NCBI GenBank assembly: GCA_949287085.1
Contig: CASEER010000003.1
Location: 1 to 64,000 of the forward strand
Length of the DNA: 64,000 nucleotides
Reading direction: 5' to 3'
Source of the DNA: an uncultured Coriobacteriaceae bacterium
GTDB taxonomy: Bacteria; Actinomycetota; Coriobacteriia; Coriobacteriales; Coriobacteriaceae
Under the pieces are notes generated by a model. That model was not told where the DNA came from, made no database searches, and was given only the letters and a program-made list of their open reading frames with translations. Positions 1,300 through 37,257 of the stretch are shown piece by piece; the first letter of the stretch is position 1; each line of letters begins with the position of its first letter. The position numbers and the translations under genes are program-made.

Positions 1300-1505
1300 A
1301 CTTTGGTGACGGTTTTGGAATGCCAGACGAATCTTTTACAACTTTGGTGACGGTTTTTCCTATATCGCCAAGTAGACCGCACCACTTCACTAATAAAAGC
1401 ACAGGTTGCAGTACGGCCTCAAGCCTGGCCTACTTTTCAATCCTCTTAAAACCGTCACCAAAGTTGAAAGAATACCCGCACGGTGACCAAAACCGTTACC
1501 AAAGT
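1300..1505. repeat. Mirror-arranged 17-bp repeats; MITE-like element or operator cluster
   Basis: Four copies of ACTTTGGTGACGGTTTT sit in an AT-richer gap. Two are in plus orientation at 1300-1316 and 1341-1357, and two inverted at 1448-1464 and 1489-1505, the last with one changed base. Spacing within each pair is exactly 41 bp, so the element has inverted ends of about 60 bp that each carry a duplicated site, around an interior of about 90 bp. No target-site duplication is evident and no protein is encoded inside. It could be a non-autonomous mobile element or a four-site operator. The flanks 1136-1299 and 1506-1643 hold nothing else I can identify. Confidence 0.7.
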
Positions 1506-7282: not shown

Positions 7283-7444
7283 TGGCCAAATTATTCAGTG
7301 CTAGGTCTTTTGTCCCGCGTTTTGCCGGTGCGCTCTGCCCACCGCGCTGGTAGAGACGGGTGCCCGGGGCCCTCTACCAGGCCCTGGGAGAAAGCGCACC
7401 GGCGTTCTGCAGGAAGAAAGACCTAGCACTGCATTTTTTGGCCA
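7283..7444. repeat. 162-bp palindromic element, copy A
   Basis: The element begins and ends with TGGCCA and is largely self-complementary: TGCTAGGTCTTT at the left matches AAAGACCTAGCA at the right, then GCCGGTGCGC with GCGCACCGGC, then CTGGTAGAG with CTCTACCAG around a G/C-rich centre. Transcribed either way it would form one long hairpin. It lies 63 bases beyond the 3' end of the Gfo/Idh gene. A second copy of equal length with the same ends is at 36992-37153. The rest of the 442-base gap 7065-7506 is the metA promoter region and short featureless stretches. Confidence 0.85.
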
Positions 7445-36991: not shown

Positions 36992-37153
36992 TGGCCAAAA
37001 ATTGCAGTGCTAGGTTTTTTTACTTGGAGTTTCATGGTGCGGTTTCGGCACCGCGCAGGTAGCGGGCTATGCACGGGGCCTTATACCAGCCCCGTGGCGA
37101 AACCGCACCAGCATACGCGAGAAGAAAAAACCTAGTACTGAAATTTTTGGCCA
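36992..37153. repeat. 162-bp palindromic element, copy B
   Basis: Bounded by TGGCCA on both sides and the same 162-bp length as copy A. The outer arms are TGCAGTGCTAGGTTTTTT and AAAAAACCTAGTACTG; inside, TGGTGCGGTTTCG pairs with CGAAACCGCACCA and ACGGGGC with GCCCCGT. Only the outer 20-30 bases resemble copy A; the inner stem sequences differ but stay complementary. It lies 190 bases after the M32 gene. The palindrome extends outward as CTCAGATGGCCA / TGGCCATCTGAG. The rest of the 456-base gap holds a terminator and no gene. Confidence 0.85.
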
Positions 37154-37177
37154 TCTGAGCGCGCGCCAGACTAAAAG

Positions 37178-37212
37178 AGCCGCGAAGAGCACATTGCCCT
37201 TCGCGGCTTTTT
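37178..37212. terminator. Bidirectional terminator between the M32 gene and cstA
   Basis: A perfect 10-bp stem AGCCGCGAAG/CTTCGCGGCT with an 11-base loop, TTTTT on the plus strand and TTTT on the minus strand. It sits 46 bases beyond the cstA stop. Confidence 0.9.
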
Positions 37213-37257
37213 GAATGATAAAACCTATCTGAGCGGTTTCATCAATGCAAACGGGCG

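Follow-up and report, generated by a model that had tools for sequence, protein, structure and literature searches.

The window, a stretch of 64,000 nucleotides from the genome of an uncultured Coriobacteriaceae bacterium, carries two intergenic palindromes of equal length, and the question raised by this locus is whether they serve as RNA hairpins, as sites for a protein or as small mobile units. The two copies (A and B; Table 1) lie where the earlier note had placed them and agree with its description, each measuring exactly 162 bp, being bounded by TGGCCA and having conserved outer arms. Both also lie near the 3' ends of genes, as it had claimed: copy A follows the 3' end of a Gfo/Idh-type oxidoreductase gene at a distance of 62 bp, with metA 218 bp away, and copy B is flanked by an M32 peptidase gene and cstA, whose 3' ends converge on it.

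Copies of the elements within and beyond the window

The family proposed in the earlier note from these two copies proved to be larger: the genome from which the window comes (G000) contains 11 copies, and relatives add many others. The copies in G000 are 161-162 bp long and all intergenic, and were counted in an assembly of 1.54 Mb that is 76% complete, so that copy numbers come from an incomplete genome. Pairwise, they are mostly ~70-80% identical, and indels are nearly absent. Copy A and a copy on another contig (G000:C2:100845-101006) are 92% identical over exactly 162 bp, while their flanks are similar only at the level of chance, which shows that one 162-bp unit moved or was copied with sharp ends.

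Table 1. Elements and arms in the window (positions are those of the whole stretch).
Feature	Position	Strand	Basis or remark
Family-1 element, copy A (162 bp)	7283..7444	.	92% identity over exactly 162 bp with G000:C2:100845-101006, flanks unrelated
Left outer arm of copy A, TGGCCAAATTATTCAGTGCTAGGT	7283..7306	+	matches pair beside gene X1 (L278)
Right outer arm of copy A, inverted	7421..7444	-	
Inner conserved GGTAGA, copy A	7349..7354	+	alignment of ten copies
Inner conserved TCTACC, copy A; partner of GGTAGA	7373..7378	-	alignment of ten copies
Family-1 element, copy B (162 bp)	36992..37153	.	outward symmetry extension CTCAGA/TCTGAG
Left outer arm of copy B	36992..37015	+	
Right outer arm of copy B	37130..37153	-	
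Family-2 element, four arms ACTTTGGTRACGGTTTT, two direct and two inverted	1300..1505	.	start-to-start spacing 41/107/41 bp
Family-2 arm 1	1300..1316	+	
Family-2 arm 2	1341..1357	+	
Family-2 arm 3	1448..1464	-	
Family-2 arm 4	1489..1505	-	

A scan for inverted pairs flagged a third element in the window, which had escaped the earlier note and belongs to a second family with four arms. Family-2 arms are also present, in a geometry that agrees within 1 bp, at G000:C8:66613-66817 and at G000:C3:90466-90752, the latter site having two extra arms. On the window's contig, beyond the window itself, the 41-bp family-2 arm unit is repeated three times in tandem, almost without change, at G000:C3:90613-90752, so that the array seems to grow in steps of a whole unit, each about four helical turns long.

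A covariance-model search detected the same element type in six other Coriobacteriaceae genomes, and a search with the end pattern alone (139-189 bp allowed) added G018 and G048; the reversed pattern, used as a control, was found in 0 of 67 genomes. The number of dispersed copies per genome ranged from 1 to 20 in the eight Coriobacteriaceae genomes other than G000. Gap-free alignment across genomes showed that an arm consists of TGGnCA, an A/T run and then ~13 species-specific nucleotides, each genome having its own arm (for example, TGGCCAAAAATTGCAGTGCTAGGT in G000, TAGCCAAAAATGCGCTAAGTCGGTC in G004, TGGCCAAAAACGAAAGTATTGTGACAC in G002, TGGACAAAAATCCGAGAAGTCGGCGA in G014 and TGGACAAAAATGACGTTAGTCGGT in G053). 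One element of G004, in a recQ/oxidoreductase gap, lies one gene over from the syntenic place of copy A, which is the oxidoreductase/metA gap in G000 (L041, L031).

In a scan of a wider collection, elements were found in Collinsella tanakaei, Candidatus Limicola stercorigallinarum (G014) and Coriobacteriaceae SIG40 (G053), with candidates in Adlercreutzia, Rubneribacter and Enterorhabdus. Many pattern matches outside the Coriobacteriia, including a 186-bp series in Prochlorococcus, were set aside as non-members having only the 10-nt ends in common. Clostridia MAGs (L157, L206) have inverted pairs, TGGACAAAAAWTGGTCAAAAGGGACA, of 141 and 148 bp, with similar ends in a different phylum. In Adlercreutzia faecimuris (L149, L156, L162, L166), the inverted pair is accompanied by further arms, repeated directly at a spacing of exactly 30 bp, which gives multi-site arrays. 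Most of the dispersed copies in G014 (L084-L093) have, on one side, a conserved tail that is ~110 bp long and contains TATGCA repeats; this tail is possibly a promoter or a set of further protein sites.

Element length follows the DNA helix

The lengths of the elements fall into classes of 142, 150-154, 160-164, 172-174, 182-184 and 193-194 bp, with few exceptions (149 and 159 bp). Taking one value per genome and length class (n = 23), the best period was 10.45 bp (R = 0.84), and 0 of 5000 random sets fitted as well. Since one turn of B-DNA is ~10.45 bp, this periodicity suggests that the two arms are held on the same face of the helix by a protein complex. The whole-turn length of the elements also provides a clear and cheap test.

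Gene X and its link to the arms

Clustering of the genes around 94 elements singled out a gene, X, which adjoins an element in G000, G001, G014, G018 and G053; little else was shared between species apart from a gdhA-X arrangement, and no other recurrent neighbour was noticed in this clustering. X encodes a protein of ~350 amino acids that belongs to an unnamed family, and it is present in 66 of 67 Coriobacteriaceae genomes and in 272 of 398 Coriobacteriia genomes. An unbiased scan, with an arm detection threshold of 20 of 24, covered 70 X loci, and at 50 of them an inverted 24-nt pair lay no more than 300 bp from the gene, as against 18 pairs in 463 kb of flanking DNA, the X loci of related species not being independent. 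In other families, a pair was present at 19 of 20 X loci. The pairs lie mostly 7-190 bp beyond the 3' end of X, at some loci on both sides, and their lengths (151-152, 160-162, 173-175, 181-184, 193-194, 203-204 and 214-217 bp) fall in the classes of the dispersed elements.

The arms of the dispersed elements match the X-linked pair of the same genome in six genomes (G000, G001, G014, G018, G048 and G053). The exceptions are G002, G004 and G005, which have dispersed copies without an X gene beside one; in G002, the X gene next to gdhA seems to have been lost. Besides X1, which is on contig C20 and encodes 348 amino acids, G000 has a second X gene, X2 (C8:51449-52321), with family-2 arms alongside at C8:51193-51397 and a geometry that agrees within 1 bp. 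The third element of the window thus has, as predicted, the arms and the geometry of the pair beside the second X gene, so that at least two X genes are present in G000 and each has a separate set of dispersed sites. Because the arms usually match the pair beside X and are helically spaced, the elements look like binding sites of X.

At the 14 loci, in five genera, where X adjoins gdhA, the X genes are homologous and the arms mostly differ between species, so that arm sequence turns over at a conserved locus. Closely related X genes have arms in common, and X similarity was correlated with arm similarity (Mantel rho 0.35, reached in 0 of 5000 permutations). The X locus looks old and vertically inherited. 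An origin of X from a phage or plasmid was rejected, as there was no match to a phage or viral contig, and the only plasmid record, from Collinsella aerofaciens, concerns a replicon of 900 kb that carries chromosomal genes. In G053, one X gene (L114:3001-4443) has a 183-bp element on each side, 1.26 kb apart, and looks like a composite unit. One Collinsella X locus (L341, G054:C1:456400-460000) is ~1.5 kb longer than its sisters.

Comparison of 39 X proteins showed that E216, D260, E271, D286 and R289 are invariant and that H277 is conserved in >90%, a pattern that provides X with a predicted EDxHD/Vsr/DUF559-like catalytic signature. Weak matches to DUF559 were obtained for 13 of the 39 proteins (best 2.4e-4, below the curated Pfam cut-off). 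The closest solved structure was that of the EDxHD homing endonuclease I-Bth0305I (3r3p), matched over the catalytic stretch with a weak E value of 0.018, and 3hrl was also matched (E 0.13). None of the NCBIfam and PADLOC models fits X, and no AbiEi profile matched. Judged by these residues, X is probably an EDxHD/Vsr-type nuclease.

This residue pattern is what X has in common with EDxHD homing endonucleases, DUF559 proteins and Vsr-like nucleases, and the differences lie elsewhere. The N-terminal part of X is longer than that of I-Bth0305I-type nucleases. A homing site is destroyed by insertion, whereas the host of X keeps many intact arms, and X was seen without an intron association. AbiEi antitoxins are often fused to DUF559. 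According to a published description, I-Bth0305I forms a dimer on its target, which is almost 60 bp long (PMC3943268), and autoregulators of the AbiEi type bind cooperatively to inverted repeats (PMC7319586). The known sites of AbiEi, however, are in the promoter, whereas the pairs of X are mostly at its 3' side.

Spread of the units and competing explanations

Our best reading, which we consider slightly more likely than not, is that the palindromes are paired binding sites of X, a DNA-binding nuclease that most likely spread the units. An X multimer would grip at once two inverted arms of ~24 bp, or two pairs of shorter arms, placed whole helical turns apart, and the DNA between them would be looped. 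Each X gene would keep a reference pair just past its own 3' end, or on both sides in some genomes, and in some species further copies are scattered between genes. Most likely, X spread these short units in the past or still does so, as RAYT transposases do for REPINs. For X, we infer binding to the arms, nuclease activity and a role in moving the units.

Besides copy A and its C2 sister in G000, with their sharp ends, which give indirect evidence of replication or excision of a unit, copies in G014 have the same interior and the one-sided tail of ~110 bp at unrelated places. Inspection by eye of the flanks of 48 copies revealed no target-site duplication. Candidates for a clean empty X site, in G032 and G052, have neither the element nor most of X, yet sequence of the X 5' end is still present, and they therefore look like deletions. 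In G053, most interiors look unrelated although the arms are kept, which suggests that these copies are old or arose otherwise.

The nearest known parallel is the REPIN-RAYT system, in which doublets of REP sequences are found with REP-associated tyrosine transposases (PMC3116915, PMC8049555), and the two agree in nearly all aspects of their organisation. In both, a conserved inverted end pair encloses a variable spacer of fixed length and is scattered between genes, with two-sided changes (here in some lineages). A copy or cluster lies beside the cognate gene, to which the arms are specific, X taking the place of RAYT apart from the three exceptions named above; a genome may have several such genes, each with its own repeat group, and the cognate gene occupies a stable chromosomal locus, X having been found on neither phages nor true plasmids. 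However, X is Vsr/DUF559-like and not an HUH (Y1) transposase, the arms are ~24 bp long, mostly not themselves palindromic and 120-217 bp apart in helical register, and there are 1-20 copies rather than hundreds. We rejected a RAYT as partner: Y1_Tnp genes are present in eight of nine genomes, all more than 3 kb from any listed element, and are missing from G053 in spite of its ~20 copies. Because the Y1 genes are unlinked to the elements and absent from G053, the system works like REPIN-RAYT but is not a member of that kind.

The suggestion in the earlier note of a REP/MITE-like element or a recombination target was close, the copies being dispersed, intergenic and species-specific and one 162-bp unit having moved or been copied. 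The linked gene is a putative Vsr/DUF559-like nuclease. A broader proposal, put forward tentatively as possible rather than probable, is that of a class-wide mobile or domesticated system of the Coriobacteriia, in which an EDxHD/Vsr-like nuclease, and not an HUH, DDE, serine or tyrosine enzyme, would capture two helically phased inverted arms and copy the unit around the chromosome, the gene locus being fixed and specificity turning over fast between species.

The alternative that survives best, which we nevertheless consider unlikely, is that the elements are immobile architectural or regulatory sites, with X or another protein looping DNA through phased arms for transcription, insulation or chromosome folding, and with the nuclease signature as a relic. 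Helical phasing is classic for looping, the X-linked pair is at a conserved locus, in some cases a copy is found 180-340 bp upstream of a metA, argC-like or carA gene, and the kept arms around unrelated-looking interiors in G053 would also be expected of such sites. However, neighbouring genes have little in common between species apart from gdhA-X, so that there is no conserved regulon, and over seven genomes the copies, all intergenic, are found in every gene orientation (21 tandem, 16 convergent and 7 divergent). The invariance of the predicted catalytic residues of X and the copying of one unit with sharp ends also argue against immobile sites.

Ordinary MITEs, that is, non-autonomous derivatives of an insertion sequence whose transposase was lost or is not recognised, would account for short, non-coding, intergenic, multi-copy units with inverted ends and one recent-looking copy. 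The link to X would then be due to chance or target preference, and yet adjacency to X is far above background, and the arms, different in every species and matching their own X in six genomes, follow a stationary gene. The earlier note had also suggested looking for a TnpA-like transposase with TGGCCA ends; when the arms of seven genomes were searched against nine genomes, neither this nor any parent insertion sequence with the same ends was found, the arms occurring only as pairs ~150-195 bp apart and never as terminal repeats flanking a gene. Together with the absence of target-site duplication in the inspected flanks, this makes MITEs of the ordinary kind improbable.

The reading that X binds and spreads the units, and that in which it loops DNA, both concern an unnamed protein family, encoded by roughly two thirds of the sampled Coriobacteriia (Collinsella, Adlercreutzia and gut relatives), that is tied to exact DNA sites in the same genomes; the function of X is therefore directly testable. 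If X moves the units, the REPIN-RAYT way of life would have been invented a second time, independently and with another enzyme chemistry; if X only bridges them, it would be a new kind of fast-evolving looping protein. Either, if true, would explain the unrelated-looking palindromes scattered in these genomes. A search of an open-access library turned up no description of the system, which may be described elsewhere.

A structured RNA or cruciform selected for its hairpin is a far less probable explanation, even though folding of the single strands gave -104 kcal/mol for copy A (z = -11.0) and -93.2 kcal/mol for copy B (z = -11.8), energies reached by 0 of 200 shuffles, and the interior, taken without the arms, was more stable than shuffled sequence in G000 (mean z -4.5), G001 and G004. 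The earlier note had taken inner stems that differ yet stay paired as compensatory change. This stands in part: in ten G000 copies the stems are often paired, with at least one two-sided change at 14 of 49 consensus pairs, so that compensatory change is real in the G000 lineage, but pairing is broken in many cells, covariation contributes a small term (-0.18), and compensatory change is not the feature conserved across the family. Interior pairing was at chance, by fold against shuffles, in G053, G014, G048 and others with the same element type, the lengths keep to the DNA helix, and a search of Rfam with the element gave no match. Since the hairpin is missing in several lineages, the common feature is the two arms in helical register and not an RNA, and the idea of a structured RNA as the general function was abandoned. 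The elements look like protein sites, perhaps small mobile units, rather than RNA genes or terminators.

Invertible promoter segments served by a common invertase would fit identical-sequence inverted repeats ~150-195 bp apart at many loci with phased lengths, but are very improbable, as the G000 interior is itself nearly palindromic and inversion would change little, the linked gene X is not a recombinase of known type, and the ten G014 interiors all have the same orientation with respect to the conserved tail outside them. Between copy B and cstA, at 37177-37215, lies an ordinary intrinsic terminator hairpin (agccgcgaagag...cttcgcggctttttg).
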